Below are positions 456-8,793 of a stretch of 28,612 nucleotides of DNA, piece by piece. Every line of letters begins with the position of its first letter. The stretch's first letter is position 1. The notes under the pieces were generated by a model. That model was not told the DNA's origin and did no database searches. It worked only from the letters and a program-made list of their open reading frames with translations. The translations under genes were made by a program, and so were the position numbers. Source of the stretch: a virus; the IMG/VR virus record IMGVR_UViG_3300043411_002578, positions 1 through 28,612 of that record; one strand, given 5' to 3'.

Positions 456-804
456 TGACTAAAGGATAAAGATTGCCACATTTATGTGGACAAGATACTG
501 CTCGCAAAGCACCTGGTAACATGCTAATTTCATTGCTGTCCTACGGGACGAGTTACAACAGATAAAGATTGCCACATTTATGTGGACGGGCAGCTCAGGA
601 CGGGCAGTCTAGAGGCAGGTAGGTGTTACAACAGATAAAGATTGCCACATTTATGTGGACTCGTGCCGCGTACAGACACGATAGCGAGAGTTACCCCGTT
701 ACAACAGATAAAGATTGCCACATTTATGTGGACACGGACCTGGTACAGATATAGGTTGATCTGGTAGAGTTACAACAGATAAAGATTGCCACATTTATGT
801 GGAC
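456..804 (+). CRISPR. CRISPR array, five 36-nt repeats, CasPhi-like repeat
   Basis: Repeats lie at 456-491 (diverged over its first ~10 bases), 552-587, 625-660, 698-733 and 769-804; the last four are identical. Each begins GTTACAACAGATAAAG and ends ATTGCCACATTTATGTGGAC, whose CCACA/TGTGG arms form a hairpin just before the spacer, as in Cas12 crRNA handles. ATTGC + hairpin + GGAC resembles the 3' half of published CasPhi repeats as I recall them. This orientation implies transcription on the + strand, co-directional with the nuclease gene. Spacers are 60 nt (492-551), 37 nt (588-624), 37 nt (661-697) and 35 nt (734-768). Spacers 2 and 3 have 24/37 and 22/37 G+C by hand count, far above the surrounding DNA. 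No repeat follows 804; methyltransferase coding sequence begins there. Confidence 0.93.
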
Positions 805-1432
805 TAATATCTCTGGAGCAATGATTCGACAAGGTTTGAAAAATTCCAAGTTGGCATTTTCTGGCTCCATCTTTAGATCTACTATTGCCAAATTAATTTA
901 TGATAATTATTGTGTTAATGACGATATTGTTTATGATTATTCTTGTGGATTTGGGCAAAGATTTTTAGGAGCAATGGCATCCAAACATAATTTAAAATAT
1001 ATTGGTGCTGAACCTTGGACTAAATCATTTGAATCTTTAAATAAAATGGCAAGATTTTTAAATTATCAACATAAAACAGAAATTTATAATGTTGGTTCAG
1101 AAAATTTTATTGAAGACAAATATATTAATCAAATATCATTAGCTTTTTCTTCACCTCCATATTTTGATACTGAAATTTATTGTAATGAAAGTACTCAATG
1201 TAATTTAAATGATTTTCAATATTATTTACATTACTGGAATAAAACATGCGAAAACATTTATCTATTGTTAAAAAAAGATGGAAAGTTTATTATTAATATT
1301 TCAGATTTATACAAAGATGATTTATTGCAAATTGCTTTAGAACATAAATTTACATTAATAGATACTTTACATCTAAAATATAGATCGTTTTCTAAGGAAA
1401 AATTAGAACCAGTATTAGTGTTGCAAAAATGA
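797..1432 (+). CDS. DNA methyltransferase (SPPY type), 5'-truncated at the CRISPR array
   Basis: This encodes a SAM-dependent methyltransferase domain of up to 211 aa. The SAM-binding motif I is VYDYSCGFG (residues 45-53) and catalytic motif IV is SPPY (119-122) in SSPPYFDTEIY. S/DPPY motifs belong to amino-methyltransferases making N4-methylcytosine or N6-methyladenine in DNA. It is a paralogue of the C-terminal domain of the next gene, sharing NIS, DYS-G-G-R-LG, MA-FL and SPPYFDTEIY in the same order. The similarity begins at the first codons after the last CRISPR repeat, and the ~140 residues that precede this point in the paralogue are missing. The ATG at 797 lies inside the repeat hairpin and has no ribosome site; an ATG at 821 has GGAG only 2 nt upstream. 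It is either a short but working enzyme or a 5'-truncated remnant. Its stop overlaps the next start (ATGA). Confidence 0.75.
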   Translation: MWTNISGAMIRQGLKNSKLAFSGSIFRSTIAKLIYDNYCVNDDIVYDYSCGFGQRFLGAMASKHNLKYIGAEPWTKSFESLNKMARFLNYQHKTEIYNVGSENFIEDKYINQISLAFSSPPYFDTEIYCNESTQCNLNDFQYYLHYWNKTCENIYLLLKKDGKFIINISDLYKDDLLQIALEHKFTLIDTLHLKYRSFSKEKLEPVLVLQK

Positions 1433-3414
1433 AAAATAAACTTAAAAATCATACTAATGAAATTATTGATCTTTATCTTTCTGGACAAGGCTCTGATGCT
1501 ATTGCTAAACATTTTAATGTAAATCCAAATTCTATCTTAAAATTACTTAGAAGAAATAAAATTGAAAGAAGAAAACCAGTATCCAAAACTTCAAATGAAG
1601 AAAAATCTGAAATTTTAGAAATGTATCAAAATGGTGTTTCGGCTCCAAAAATTGCCAAATTATTTAAAATTTCACCCACAATTGTTGCAAAAATTCTTAA
1701 AAAAAATAATATACAATTAAGAAATGCTTCTCAAGCCCATAGAATTTATAAAATTAATGAAGAGTTTTTAGATAATATTGATTCCGAAGAAAAAGCCTAT
1801 TTTTTGGGTTTCTTCTTTGCTGATGGGAATACTTCTAAAAATAAAAAAACAATTTCTATCGAAGCATCTTATACTGATATAAATATTTTAGAAAAATTTA
1901 AATTATTATTTTATTATGAAGGTAATAAAAATTTAAGAACAAGTTCTTTAATTAGAGATAAAAAAGTTATCAAAACATATATACTAAACATTCATAGTAA
2001 AAAAATCAACCAAAAAATGGTTGAACTTGGTGCAGAGCCAAATAAAACATTTAAAATTAAATATCCAAATATAGATCCTAGTTTACACAAACATTTTATT
2101 AGAGGTCTATTTGATGGAGATGGTGGATTTTATTTTTCTGGAACTTCTGGTGCTAGTTTTCAATTAATCTCTACAAACGAAATGTTAGAATCTATTAGAT
2201 CTATTTTGGAACAAGAATGTCAAATTGAATTTTCTGAAAAATCTATTCATTCTGTTGGTAATGTTTTTAATTTTTCATTTGCAGGAGCTGAAAAAATAGA
2301 AAAAATACTTGACTATTTTTATAAAGATAGTTCTATTTATTTAGATAGGAAATATAACAAATATCTAGAGTTTAAAAAATGGAGAAATAATGAAATTATT
2401 TCTTCTTCAAAATTTACAACCGAATTTGATGACATTTTTAAATATAATGGAAATTCACTTACCAAAGACTTTATTTCTACATTATCTATTGATGAAAAAC
2501 AAAGCATAACTAAATATTTAATTTCTATCATAAGAGCACAAGGTTGGAGACAACCAAGAACATTAGATCATTTACAAAATGATTATAAATCATTAATGGA
2601 TTATAATCCAGATTTGAATTCAAATACCATAAATAACAACAGCTCTTTGGCAACCAATATTTGTAAAACTTTTTGTTCCGAATTCTTCTATTCAAAAAGA
2701 AATAATTCAATTTCTTTATTTGAAGCTTTTCATAATGATCAAAAATTAGAAAAAGCTATTTTAAATAGAATGGGTATTGGAAATAAAGAAATATATAATA
2801 TTTCATATAAATCTATTCTGAGAGGTATGGTTAGTGCAGGCATATCTGCAAATATTTCAATGTTTAAACCAGTAATTGCTAAATATATGGCATTAAAATA
2901 TTGTCCCGAAAATGGTGAAGTTTTTGATTATTCAGCTGGTTGGGGCGGCAGAATGCTCGGCACAATTGCAGCAAATAGAAAATATACAGGAGTAGATCCT
3001 TTGAATATTCCTGATTTAAAATTAATGGCTAAATTTTTATCAATTGATGTTAATCTTATTGAGGCTTGTTCAGAAAATATTTGCTTAAATAAAAAGTTTG
3101 ATTTAATTTGGTCCAGCCCGCCATATTTTGATACAGAAATATATTCAAATGATTTAACCCAAGCTTACTCTCAAGGAGAAGAATATTTTTATAATGCATA
3201 TTGGAAAAATACACTAAATAATTGCAAACAAATGTTAAAAGAAAATGGATATTTTGGTGTAAATATTAAAAACCAACCTAAAATGTTAGAAATGACTGTT
3301 GAAACTTTTGGAGAAATTTATGAAAAAATTGAAATGATTTCTTCTAAAAATCATTTGGTTAAAAATAAAAAACATTCAAGTAATGAATTTATTTATATAT
3401 TTAAAAATAAATAA
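1429..3414 (+). CDS. HTH - LAGLIDADG homing endonuclease - DNA methyltransferase fusion
   Basis: A 661-aa protein with three parts. Residues ~8-45 and ~57-95 are two tandem helix-turn-helix repeats (DAIAKHFNVNPNSILKLL and APKIAKLFKISPTIVAKIL). Residues ~115-330 form a LAGLIDADG endonuclease with both motifs, YFLGFFFADG (from 124) and FIRGLFDGDG (from ~223), each keeping its acidic residue. Residues ~330-470 are not recognised. Residues ~470-661 are an SPPY methyltransferase with motif I VFDYSAGWGG (from 498) and SPPYFDTEIY (from 563). The LAGLIDADG part would cut a specific DNA site; the methyltransferase would modify adenine or cytosine amino groups. The start overlaps the upstream paralogue by 4 nt, so the two are probably co-translated. 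Codon use is AT-rich like the rest of the window. I see no intein splice motifs (no N-terminal Cys/Ser block or C-terminal HN), so a true fusion is preferred to an intein. Confidence 0.82.
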   Translation: MKNKLKNHTNEIIDLYLSGQGSDAIAKHFNVNPNSILKLLRRNKIERRKPVSKTSNEEKSEILEMYQNGVSAPKIAKLFKISPTIVAKILKKNNIQLRNASQAHRIYKINEEFLDNIDSEEKAYFLGFFFADGNTSKNKKTISIEASYTDINILEKFKLLFYYEGNKNLRTSSLIRDKKVIKTYILNIHSKKINQKMVELGAEPNKTFKIKYPNIDPSLHKHFIRGLFDGDGGFYFSGTSGASFQLISTNEMLESIRSILEQECQIEFSEKSIHSVGNVFNFSFAGAEKIEKILDYFYKDSSIYLDRKYNKYLEFKKWRNNEIISSSKFTTEFDDIFKYNGNSLTKDFISTLSIDEKQSITKYLISIIRAQGWRQPRTLDHLQNDYKSLMDYNPDLNSNTINNNSSLATNICKTFCSEFFYSKRNNSISLFEAFHNDQKLEKAILNRMGIGNKEIYNISYKSILRGMVSAGISANISMFKPVIAKYMALKYCPENGEVFDYSAGWGGRMLGTIAANRKYTGVDPLNIPDLKLMAKFLSIDVNLIEACSENICLNKKFDLIWSSPPYFDTEIYSNDLTQAYSQGEEYFYNAYWKNTLNNCKQMLKENGYFGVNIKNQPKMLEMTVETFGEIYEKIEMISSKNHLVKNKKHSSNEFIYIFKNK

Positions 3415-3443
3415 GGAGAGTATTTCTACTCTCCTTATTTTTA
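3413..3443. terminator. Bidirectional intrinsic terminator
   Basis: A perfect 10-bp stem AAGGAGAGTA/TACTCTCCTT (3413-3436) encloses the loop TTTC (GAAA on the - strand). T-rich DNA lies on both sides. It sits between the convergent endonuclease-methyltransferase and major capsid genes and would end transcription from both directions. Confidence 0.85.
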
Positions 3444-3473
3444 GTTTGTTTTAGCTATCAGCTAGTTAACTTA

Positions 3474-4472
3474 TTAACCTACTGAAACTGATTTACGACC
3501 TGCGGCAACGCCACGTGGTACTAAAATAGCCAAACCGATCTCTTCGCTTACTACCCATCCCATTGATAAACGTCTTGGTTCATCGGCTGGCATGACTTCA
3601 ATGTCCTGTCTAACTGGCATAACGCCTACGAACTCTGGATCGGCACAGGCATAAACGGTACCGACTGGAACCATTTTGCTTACCATGATGTCAGCGCCCC
3701 AGATCTTAGCATAAAGACCTGTTTGTAGGATTTCGCGGTGAGTAACTGGATCAATTTCAGCAGCTGAGCTACCTGAAGAGGTCCACTTTAGAATATCAGT
3801 GAATTCACGGATGTTCATGAAGAATTTGCTTGTTACTAAGTCCCATTGATCAACTTGTTGTTTTAGTTCAATCAAGTCGGCTTTCATCATACCAGCATCT
3901 GTGATGTCTTGTAGGACGTTTTCTACTGAAGCAGCAGCATCAAGAGAAGCGAAACCGTTGGCATCTTCGTTAGCCATTAGTTCTTGGCGTGCTTTTTGAA
4001 CGGCACGGTCAATAACATTGAATCTACGTTTACGAACTTCAGAAATTCTGACAGTTGGATTTGAAGCAAGTTCAAAGGTTGGAACTGTAACTGATTCGCC
4101 GAAGATACGTGATTCTGGAGGAGAACCGTTTGATGAAACAACAACAGCTGTTACGTCAATATCGCGGTGATAAACAGCGTTTGCACCTTGTGTTAGAGGA
4201 TCTACAACAAGGGCTCTACGGAAAATACCGTGGTAATCTAAGTTTTTACGAATTGGAGAAGCCATAGCTTGAGCTAGAGCCAATTTGCCTTGACCATCAT
4301 AAAGAGCACGTTGAACTAATTCATCACGTCTTGAGTCTGAAACACTTGGTTGACCTGCAAGAGAGAAGTTTGATGGAGTACCGTCTTGGATAATTGAAGC
4401 ATATTTTGAGATAATTGTTAATGCTTCTTTTACGCTATTAGCGTTAACTTGTCCGTCACTATTAAAATACAT
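3474..4472 (-). CDS. Major capsid protein (HK97 fold, probable)
   Basis: A 332-aa protein. It has no catalytic motif but shows the pattern of a phage major capsid protein: a helical N-terminal region with short acidic turns, a long central alpha/beta part (ALVVDPLTQGANAVYHRDID; TVRISEVRKRRFNVIDRAVQ), a segment predicting interaction with neighbours (FMNIREFTDILKW), then a beta-rich C-terminus (GADIMVSKMVPVGTVYACAD; LSMGWVVSEEIGLAILVPRG). The codons are richer in G/C than those of flanking genes, as expected for a highly expressed protein. It ends the leftward structural block, with a strong terminator 37 nt beyond the stop, and has a 217-nt leader of its own with two hairpins. The start has AAGG 7 nt upstream. 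Its place downstream of portal and protease-scaffold supports the call, though sequence alone cannot prove the fold. Confidence 0.75.
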   Translation of the reverse strand: MYFNSDGQVNANSVKEALTIISKYASIIQDGTPSNFSLAGQPSVSDSRRDELVQRALYDGQGKLALAQAMASPIRKNLDYHGIFRRALVVDPLTQGANAVYHRDIDVTAVVVSSNGSPPESRIFGESVTVPTFELASNPTVRISEVRKRRFNVIDRAVQKARQELMANEDANGFASLDAAASVENVLQDITDAGMMKADLIELKQQVDQWDLVTSKFFMNIREFTDILKWTSSGSSAAEIDPVTHREILQTGLYAKIWGADIMVSKMVPVGTVYACADPEFVGVMPVRQDIEVMPADEPRRLSMGWVVSEEIGLAILVPRGVAAGRKSVSVG

Positions 4473-4517
4473 TATTGTACCTTATTTTTTCGAGAATTTT
4501 TTTGCTTTTTACAGCAT

Positions 4518-6086: not shown

Positions 6087-7705
6087 TAAAAGTCCCATTT
6101 ATCTAAGTTAACTAATTCAACAGTTGGTGGTTTATAATCTGTTAAACTGATATATTCATCCCACTTAGTAGCAAAATCTCCAGAATCAGACATTTCTTTC
6201 CATAATTTTTCAGCAAGTTGTTGATTTTTATTTTTTTTGTAATCAACAAATCTTTCTGAAAATTGTTTATCTGGTTCAGATAAATTTTTTCCAAGTTTAT
6301 TTTTGATTAAATTAGCTAGTAATACTTCTGCTTCTTTTAAATTGTTATAATTATATTTGGTATTCCAAAAAGAAGCGGCTTTTTGTGTTGCAATTTCATT
6401 AATATAATTTTCTATTATGTCAATTTCATTAGAAGCTAAATATCCTTTAAAAATTTCATCAATCATTTCTCCATAATTAGGGAAATGATCATTTTTTAAA
6501 TTTGTAGTTTCTATTTCATGTTTAATTTTTGATATGCTATTAAATTTTTTTTTTAATTCTGTCGATGCAGTTTTATAAGATGCATTTTTAGATTTAAGAA
6601 ACTTTTCAAAAGGAGTAAGTTCTTTTTGGTTTTCTTTTTTTGCTTCTGGACTTGCTGAAGATGAATCAATAGTTACACCAGATTTTGAGATAATTTGGCG
6701 TAAATTATCTAAAGAAACAAGTTTATTATCTAAAGATTTATTAAAATCATTAGCTGAAGCTTTTAGCACTTCAAGAAGATCAAGAACATCTTCAACATCT
6801 GATTGAACAACATATTCTTTTACTTTAGTTAGCCATTGCATGACAGTTGATTCTGGTCCTGAATTTAATGTTTCAAGGAAAGTTTTGACCGTATCAGTAG
6901 AATCAACAATAGCTTCGGTAAGATTTTTTATTTTTTTAATTGATTCTTCTATTTTTTTATCTTTTGAATTAGAAAAGATGGCAGAAGCTATATTTTTAGA
7001 TAAAGCAATTCTTTTATCTTTATCAGTTTCAGTTTTAATTTGTAGAACCAAGTTTGAAATAGAGTCTAATTCTTTTTCAAGATCATTATCAGTTGTAATT
7101 GTATCTTTTAGAAGTTTTTCAAAAGGAGCTAGGGTAGCAACTGATTTTGGATATTTATCTTTAACATCATCTAGTTGATCTAAGGTTTTTAGTATATCGT
7201 TTTTAAAACCTTGTGAATCTGGATGATTACCTGCATAGGCAGATGCACCACCAAGAAGCGCAACAGCACCAGCAATTAAATAAGGAGCGAGAACAATCAA
7301 TGGTGTAGCTTCTTTATAAAGTTGTTGAGTAATAGAATCTGCTAATTTAGCAGCTTGTTCTTGATTTTGATTATCAAGCATAAGTGCAATTTTAAGAGTA
7401 GAGTTTAATAAATCTTCGGAGGCAGAAATATATCTGGTATTATCATGAAAACCAGTAGGAGTTTTCAATGCCAACATAGACATAATATCTTGACGTTGTT
7501 GAACATTTTCGATAATTCCATTCATTTTATCATAAGAAGGACCTTGAACGATAGTTTCAGGATGAGCTTCTTCGACTAATTCTTTAACAGATTTTAATGG
7601 TAAATTGTAAACATCTTCAACCTTTTCTTCGGCTTTAGAAATCAAACCCATTTTTTCTGCTATTTTTGCATATTCATCAAAAATTTCACTATTTTTTAAT
7701 CTCAT
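6086..7705 (-). CDS. Large helical virion-cluster protein with one hydrophobic segment
   Basis: A 539-aa protein of unknown function. It is mostly helical and rich in Lys, Asp, Glu and Ser, with a strongly hydrophobic stretch at residues 134-158 (TPLIVLAPYLIAGAVALLGG) that could cross a membrane or be a buried helix. Just before it, residues ~100-130 carry the helical-hairpin pattern LKIALML...QAAKLADSI seen in other proteins of this block. The remainder looks like long coiled-coil or spectrin-like helices. The start overlaps the upstream stop by 4 nt, so it is co-translated with the 363-aa gene. Ejected or inner-head virion proteins of large phages often have this make-up, but that is inference. 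Confidence 0.5.
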   Translation of the reverse strand: MRLKNSEIFDEYAKIAEKMGLISKAEEKVEDVYNLPLKSVKELVEEAHPETIVQGPSYDKMNGIIENVQQRQDIMSMLALKTPTGFHDNTRYISASEDLLNSTLKIALMLDNQNQEQAAKLADSITQQLYKEATPLIVLAPYLIAGAVALLGGASAYAGNHPDSQGFKNDILKTLDQLDDVKDKYPKSVATLAPFEKLLKDTITTDNDLEKELDSISNLVLQIKTETDKDKRIALSKNIASAIFSNSKDKKIEESIKKIKNLTEAIVDSTDTVKTFLETLNSGPESTVMQWLTKVKEYVVQSDVEDVLDLLEVLKASANDFNKSLDNKLVSLDNLRQIISKSGVTIDSSSASPEAKKENQKELTPFEKFLKSKNASYKTASTELKKKFNSISKIKHEIETTNLKNDHFPNYGEMIDEIFKGYLASNEIDIIENYINEIATQKAASFWNTKYNYNNLKEAEVLLANLIKNKLGKNLSEPDKQFSERFVDYKKNKNQQLAEKLWKEMSDSGDFATKWDEYISLTDYKPPTVELVNLDKWDF

Positions 7706-8793
7706 AAGTTCCTAAGAATATCAGTTATAAAGGTATCAACAATTTGTTTTCTATTGGTAAATTCTTCTGGCATTACCATCTGATTTTTAGTAATATTTTC
7801 TGGTTTAGATTTTATTTTTCTAACAATATCTTTAAAATCAGATGATTGATATATTACATCAGATATATTATCATATTCCTTTAATTTTGGATAAAGATCT
7901 ATTGTCCATAATTTTAATGTGTTTTCTACTGAACCAAATAATGGTACGATCCAGAATTTTCTTTGTGGACCAGTTTTTACTTCTTTAATTTTATCTGGTA
8001 CATTTGTAGCTATATCATGAACCTTATTAAAACTATGTTCGACTTCTTGAGTAATGTTTTGTGTTGTTTCTTGAATTTTTTCTTCTGCTTTTGGAAGATG
8101 ATTTTTAAACAAAGAACCAACCATACCACCAACAGCCAAAATACCAAAGCCCTTTAAAAATGTTTTAAGCACCCAGATAACCAAACCAAGAATAACTCTT
8201 CTTGCTTTTCCTTTGCCTTGAGATTTTAAAGCATTTGTTAAACGATCACCAAGAACTTTATCCATCAAGCCTGGTTTTGATTTAGTTGAGTATTTTGATT
8301 CAACAAAGTCATCAAAAATACCAGCTGTTTTCATTTGATTATATTTAACAAAGTTGTTTAAGAAATCAATATGACTAGCATCAACAGATACGCCAGCAGC
8401 TGATTCGGCAGCTTCTGTAATATCAGAAGTTGAAATTGAACCAGATTCAATCTTTGGTTTTAAATAATCAAAGATTTTTGTTACTAATGTTTGCAAATTA
8501 AAACCAAATTCATTTGCAATTCCGTAAATTACTCCCAATAAAGGATGAACATTCCATAAAGTACCAGCAGCAATAACAGATAGAAAATCTGTTAAATGAC
8601 CACCTGGAGCTTCTCCAGAAAACTGTTCTTGCATTTGACTTTTGGCAAAGGAAGTAACCGAAGATAAAACAGAACCATTCAAAAAAGACATAACTTCATC
8701 TGTTAATCCGGCAGTTTTGGTCATGCCAAAAACTTCTTGATTAAAGTTTAAGATAGCTTGTGTTTCTTTTAGAAAGAGTAAGTCTTGGTTCAT
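7702..8793 (-). CDS. Virion-cluster protein with hydrophobic segments
   Basis: A 363-aa protein of unknown function. Two hydrophobic regions stand out: residues ~66-98 (FLSVIAAGTLW...PLLGVIYGIA) and ~199-229 (VILGLVIWVLKTFLKGFGIL continuing AVGGMVGSLF), the second preceded by a basic KGKARR. A helical, amphipathic region follows (KAEEKIQETTQNITQEVEHS). The motif KTAG[LI] occurs twice (residues 26-30 and 155-159), in MTKTAGL and QMKTAGI. It shares a 4-nt overlap with the next gene and directly follows the 1122-aa gene. Membrane-active or internal virion proteins are possible; no enzyme motif is visible. Confidence 0.5.
   Translation of the reverse strand: MNQDLLFLKETQAILNFNQEVFGMTKTAGLTDEVMSFLNGSVLSSVTSFAKSQMQEQFSGEAPGGHLTDFLSVIAAGTLWNVHPLLGVIYGIANEFGFNLQTLVTKIFDYLKPKIESGSISTSDITEAAESAAGVSVDASHIDFLNNFVKYNQMKTAGIFDDFVESKYSTKSKPGLMDKVLGDRLTNALKSQGKGKARRVILGLVIWVLKTFLKGFGILAVGGMVGSLFKNHLPKAEEKIQETTQNITQEVEHSFNKVHDIATNVPDKIKEVKTGPQRKFWIVPLFGSVENTLKLWTIDLYPKLKEYDNISDVIYQSSDFKDIVRKIKSKPENITKNQMVMPEEFTNRKQIVDTFITDILRNL

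Follow-up and report, generated by a model that had tools for sequence, protein, structure and literature searches.

The stretch of viral DNA analysed here (28,612 nucleotides of IMG/VR record IMGVR_UViG_3300043411_002578, hereafter the window) encodes a single protein in which a predicted LAGLIDADG homing endonuclease, recognized from two motifs with their acidic residues, is followed in frame by a methyltransferase. Comparison with viral relatives indicates that such fusions evolved several times, nearly always beside a capsid gene, a pattern suggestive of a mobile element that cuts rival genomes and perhaps marks its own as safe. The features on which the argument relies are the following.

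797-1432, plus strand: second methyltransferase gene, P0002 (211 aa), 36% identical to aa 457-625 of the fused protein P0001 and matching Pfam N6_N4_Mtase (7e-9).
1429-3414, plus strand: fused HTH-LAGLIDADG endonuclease-methyltransferase gene, an open frame of 661 aa (P0001), from a full-length alignment with seven viral relatives of 35-39% identity.
1453-1707, plus strand (aa ~9-93): two HTH repeats, probable DNA-binding modules, matched in two stretches by Pfam HTH_38/HTH_7 and helical in the AlphaFold model.
1756-2382, plus strand (aa ~110-318): LAGLIDADG endonuclease domain, from Pfam LAGLIDADG_3 and PHROG 4645 endonuclease, with I-AniI among the Foldseek matches.
1798-1830, plus strand (aa 124-134): LAGLIDADG motif 1 with putative catalytic Asp D132, conserved in all 22 aligned fusion rows (21 of them complete, one near-identical pair included).
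2092-2127, plus strand (aa 222-233): LAGLIDADG motif 2 with putative catalytic Asp D231, kept in 21 of the same 22 rows.
2383-2418, plus strand (aa 319-330): linker of ~12 aa between the two enzymes, placed from the ends of free-standing L011 and L012 and the start of free-standing L016.
2419-3411, plus strand (aa 331-661): methyltransferase, with an N-terminal helical and a catalytic domain, from PHROG 12517 and 498 and alignment with free-standing phage methyltransferases.
2920-2964, plus strand (aa 498-512): methyltransferase motif I, VFDYSAGWGGRMLGT, from the alignment.
3106-3144, plus strand (aa 560-572): methyltransferase motif IV, IWSSPPYFDTEIY, reading SPPY or SPPF in 21 of 21 complete LAGLIDADG_3 fusions.
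3413-3436, no strand assigned: shared terminator-like element between the convergent fused and capsid genes, a hairpin AAGGAGAGTA-TTTC-TACTCTCCTT followed by Ts, read from the sequence.
3474-4472, minus strand: major capsid gene (PHROG 2522 major head protein, 1.6e-73), the element's conserved neighbour, also found in relatives.

The frame opens with an ATG and runs uninterrupted to its stop, and the original prediction of one 661-aa chain comprising two HTH repeats, a LAGLIDADG endonuclease and an SPPY methyltransferase was borne out by the frame and by the Pfam and PHROG matches alike. The HTH_38 match reached 8e-10 over its two stretches and the LAGLIDADG_3 match 7e-7, while PHROG 4645 'endonuclease' was matched at 4.9e-54 across aa 21-312. 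Motif 1 reads YFLGFFFADG, which contains D132, and motif 2 reads FIRGLFDGDG, which contains D231; the single replacement, in locus L102, is of the second Asp by Lys (FDGKG). Foldseek matched the nuclease model to I-AniI (E 5e-6), but the rmsd was 14 and parts of the domain were modelled with low confidence, and no solved structure with a sequence relationship to the fused protein was found.

Judged from the presence of motif I, which reads DYSAGWGGRMLG, and of a motif IV stretch reading SSPPYFDTEIY, the C-terminal half is an SPPY-type amino-methyltransferase. This half matched PHROG 12517 at 1e-13 and PHROG 498 'DNA methyltransferase' at 1e-7; Pfam N6_N4_Mtase gave no significant match for the fused copy, although it did for the neighbouring P0002. 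The best solved folds retrieved by Foldseek were RNA m2G enzymes (Trm11), with M.TaqI ranking lower, so that DNA is no more than the presumed substrate. The intact appearance of the methyltransferase, pointed out for the window from the outset, extends to its relatives: motif IV was preserved in every complete LAGLIDADG_3 fusion, and no loss was seen where the nuclease was intact, so this half does not look inactive across the members.

Inteins and introns are frequent homes of LAGLIDADG domains, and the nuclease could in principle be a product of either, or the fusion an artefact of assembly; the likelihood of this is negligible. An intein was rejected, as there are no exteins on both sides and no splicing residues at the junction. 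The nuclease begins in the region of the first residue, nothing that could serve as an N-terminal extein precedes it, and the only HN dipeptide of the protein lies inside the methyltransferase rather than C-terminally at the junction. Near the junction the sole ATG is codon 390 and the sole TTG codon 396, both within the methyltransferase; with no other start nearby, the methyltransferase half would be produced solely within the fusion protein unless initiation occurs at one of these two codons. In the alignment the free-standing nucleases L011 and L012 stop near the nuclease side of the junction and the free-standing methyltransferase L016 begins near its other side, and P0001 thus corresponds to a complete nuclease followed by a complete methyltransferase. 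An Rfam search of the whole window gave no match. A lone freak fusion or an assembly artefact was likewise rejected, since the fusion recurs across many independent contigs. The endonuclease is thus no removable intein or intron product, in keeping with the fused enzyme proposed in the original prediction.

The region upstream of the fused gene has features of its own. The stop codon of P0002 overlaps the fused gene's start (ATGA), and P0002 is without the N-terminal ~115 aa typical of the methyltransferase family. Its start codon (797) falls within the last repeat of a CRISPR-like array, and similarity to the fused copy starts straight after that repeat, as though the gene had exchanged its 5' end for the array. 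The array (468-804) has a 36-nt repeat, GTTACAACAGATAAAGATTGCCACATTTATGTGGAC, in five copies, the 5' end of the first having diverged; its spacers are mostly of 35-37 nt, one being about 60, and a small hairpin stands on the 3' side. An exact search for the repeat in other viral contigs gave no match. Directly before the array lies the C-terminal end of a Cas12/TnpB-like protein (2-427), truncated by the contig start, which matched Pfam Cas12f1-like_TNB at 2e-11 and NCBIfam Cas12f2 and TnpB below the cut-off.

Relatives were retrieved by alignment queries; single-sequence scans, in which the peptide patterns were too specific, gave none. A profile scan with the methyltransferase family yielded 80 viral loci. 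Seven of the nine closest share the architecture, at 688-719 aa, and the other two (L016 and L019) carry the methyltransferase without a nuclease. A second scan, with a full-length alignment query, brought the number of distinct LAGLIDADG_3-methyltransferase fusions to about 20, so that the search for homologues with the same domain order, proposed at the outset as a check, returned some 20 viral relatives arranged HTH-LAGLIDADG-methyltransferase; recurrence on this scale excludes chance as the cause of the architecture. One of these fusions comes from a contig of 383 kb belonging to a Chitinophagales MAG. Other nucleases were joined to the same, N-terminal, end of this methyltransferase family, namely LAGLIDADG_2 (L008, L024, L031, L091), Vsr-like (L007, L039/L048) and TnsA-like (L022) enzymes; a nuclease-like region is fused in L023 and a zinc-finger region in a Prevotella Lak phage (L009). 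The four nuclease types alone therefore imply at least four fusions. The L008 protein (781-4473), from a huge phage, is 1230 aa long and combines the methyltransferase with two LAGLIDADG_2 domains and, at its C-terminal end, a zinc-finger-like region.

Fused members are dispersed over the methyltransferase tree (107 rows, built by a quick method, on which changes may be gains or losses). LAGLIDADG_3 accounts for seven changes, at least four of them forced by well-supported branches, and LAGLIDADG_2 and PD-(D/E)XK-type nucleases for three each, at least two in each case being forced. On the nuclease tree, the fused members of one methyltransferase clade do not form one group: ten fused and three unfused members make up a single well-supported clade, the main fused clade, and the nucleases of the window, L093 and L021 fall outside it among free-standing nucleases. 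In combination, the trees and nuclease types make eight or more independent fusions likely. Fusion to another enzyme-like domain was found in one of 150 other LAGLIDADG_3-family nucleases, a ratio biased by a sample drawn with a query that included the methyltransferase. In this locus (L152) an HTH-methyltransferase without LAGLIDADG adjoins the nuclease, whose partner (6918-8672) is an acyltransferase-like protein resembling LPG_synthase_C (Pfam 1e-5, below the cut-off). In L255 (12482-13270) and L261 (10500-11255) the acyltransferase-like protein has a gene of its own next to the methyltransferase, and the two proteins possibly form a modification pair.

In the window the capsid gene lies directly downstream of the fused gene, and nearly all relatives likewise have a major capsid gene as neighbour, with the fusion positioned just 3' of it. 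A capsid gene was found within 5 kb of 25/28 fused but 9/75 unfused methyltransferases, and within 500 bp of 20/28 and 1/75, respectively (Fisher p about 1e-13, uncorrected for relatedness of the rows). After longer contigs were checked the fused count rose to 27/28, the capsid gene being immediately upstream of the L017 fusion in L279 and ~2 kb upstream of that in L007. The sole remaining exception is L023, a 6.4-kb contig in which a tail sheath gene adjoins the fusion. The association spans two capsid families, PHROG 2522 and the T4 gp23-like PHROG 138, and in the Lak phage a weak capsid match lies ~3.5 kb upstream.

Both halves are under purifying selection as one conserved chain. Pairwise dN/dS among closer pairs was mostly 0.1-0.25 in either half, with higher values for L100-L102 (0.51 in the nuclease) and window-L093 (about 0.5), all of them rough because synonymous sites are near saturation. 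These observations bear on the suggestion that the arrangement is an accident of insertion, in which nucleases land near capsid genes, a methyltransferase is often present there and the two become fused in frame without functional coupling. Capsid flanks are hotspots for HNH, LAGLIDADG and intron-borne nucleases in one stretch, and homing genes near capsid genes are already known, a figure of 31% being cited for those beside capsid genes in T5orf172 neighbourhoods (PMC10448857). However, the unfused methyltransferases seldom occur at a capsid gene, and selection on both halves, together with their co-divergence, renders such an accident improbable.

A capsid-gene scan provided 80 loci on contigs of up to 452 kb. 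Ten relatives have an empty junction, the conserved gene that follows the capsid gene starting 23-255 bp further on; in others the fusion stands there, pointing one way or the other, or else a single nuclease, HNH genes, unrelated genes, or an unfused methyltransferase accompanied by an acyltransferase-like gene. Throughout the main fused nuclease clade (13 members) the locus includes a methyltransferase, in three cases as a separate gene. Nuclease and methyltransferase distances are correlated at r=0.89, against 0.25-0.30 for the capsid protein versus either, which argues that nuclease and methyltransferase move as a unit apart from the capsid gene. L100 and L110 have capsid proteins 95% identical and unlike fusion types. 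Mobility of the fused gene independent of its flanking genes is thus well supported, by inference from sequence comparison. A co-conversion footprint was looked for in the capsid gene and none was seen; the phages may be too divergent.

Two further occupants of this region were noted. In many relatives the capsid gene is separated from the next conserved one by a gene whose sequence reads like that of a CCA-adding tRNA nucleotidyltransferase; this gene (~413-451 aa, reverse strand, in L266, L313 and L317) had been suspected to encode a TnpB-like nuclease, a suspicion dropped on reading the sequence. Capsid genes themselves are split in L094, L096, L099, L111, L113, L152 and L172, with breaks after about aa 75, 89, 93 and 247. 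The inserts that were read encode HTH-LAGLIDADG_2 proteins, and Rfam matched no intron family in the split genes.

The explanation we favour, at slightly less than even confidence, is a free-standing mobile homing gene of the capsid flank whose protein carries its own methyltransferase, the likeliest role of the latter being protection of the carrier's target. During mixed infection the HTH-LAGLIDADG half would cut the genomes of related phages without the element, the probable target being the conserved capsid gene or its vicinity; with the carrier as repair template, the element would then be copied into the cut genome (intronless homing). Less certainly, since a free-standing element leaves its cleavage site uninterrupted, the methyltransferase half, guided by the HTH repeats to the DNA that the nuclease binds, would modify the carrier's site and so prevent self-cleavage. 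Cleavage by free-standing phage nucleases takes place hundreds to thousands of bp away from the nuclease gene (PMC2988022), and the fused gene would on that account not disrupt its own site. Protection by the methyltransferase, a hypothesis, is in agreement with the recurrence of the fusion with unlike nucleases and with the methyltransferase never being the part lost, as the nuclease is lost in L152 and damaged in L102 with the methyltransferase kept in both. It would not be obligatory, given that LAGLIDADG_3-family nucleases adjoin capsid genes without any methyltransferase in L115, L116, L118 and L123. The restriction-modification or protected-homing device of the original prediction likewise has the standing of a hypothesis, to which the position at the capsid flank, the empty sites and the horizontal pattern lend a homing setting. 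We consider more tentatively a fuller form of self-protected homing, in which both enzymes read one site through the HTH repeats, cut unmodified rivals at the capsid locus and mark their own genome, phages having repeatedly built the whole by joining unlike nucleases to a single methyltransferase family. The HTH repeats are candidates for the specificity module common to both activities.

The main rival to self-protected homing is that the methyltransferase is cargo: the nuclease homes, and the methyltransferase helps the phage in some other way, for example against host restriction, with no site shared. Free-standing family members are common in phages (the 75 unfused rows), so the methyltransferase is useful alone, and a Vibrio phage copy lies among DNA-metabolism genes; the retention of the methyltransferase in L102 and L152 and the occurrence of nucleases without it at the same flank also accord with cargo. 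Nevertheless, cargo leaves unexplained the recurrent fusion to unlike nucleases, always at the N-terminal end, and the rarity of other enzyme-like partners in the same, query-biased nuclease sample, and we regard it as rather unlikely.

LAGLIDADG enzymes are known for homing and for long target sites, and the capsid-flank position, the empty sites and the independent movement fit homing, as do relatives whose capsid genes contain putative introns that harbour nuclease genes at this locus. A one-chain restriction-modification enzyme that acts without homing on many short sites in unmodified host or rival DNA is for these reasons distinctly improbable, even though it would agree with a methyltransferase that is never lost alone. 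Type IIG enzymes likewise hold a nuclease and an amino-methyltransferase in one chain, with motif I before motif IV (PMC4081073), but the window protein has a nuclease of a different predicted fold, no identified specificity domain of the type IIG kind and a location at the capsid flank.

Among known homing genes, the closest parallel in position is segD of T4, free-standing between capsid genes 23 and 24 (PMC2988022). Both are intergenic nuclease genes beside a capsid gene, antisense to it (in the window, as in segD) and sporadic among relatives; the T4 enzymes, however, are GIY-YIG or HNH proteins, none described with a methyltransferase (PMC2988022), and the mobility of the window element is inferred. 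By sequence the nuclease half is a member of PHROG 4645/LAGLIDADG_3, whose members are normally free-standing, whereas here a methyltransferase follows in frame. The ShiLan element also combines a homing nuclease and a phage methylase in one gene (PMC11855218); its HNH nuclease is hidden inside the methylase gene in another frame, unlike the in-frame, N-terminal nuclease of the window, where both domains are complete. In the open-access literature, the scope of the search, no precedent was found for an in-frame fusion between a homing nuclease and a methyltransferase.

Free-standing homing nucleases often spare their own cleavage site, which raises the general question of what keeps a carrier from cutting itself. 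A methyltransferase partner that recurs in frame would be a concrete answer and would unite homing and restriction-modification, two selfish strategies, in one molecule; if true, self-protected homing would constitute a functional link between them. The recurrent association with capsid genes in large phages indicates, in addition, where and how genes are exchanged in such genomes.
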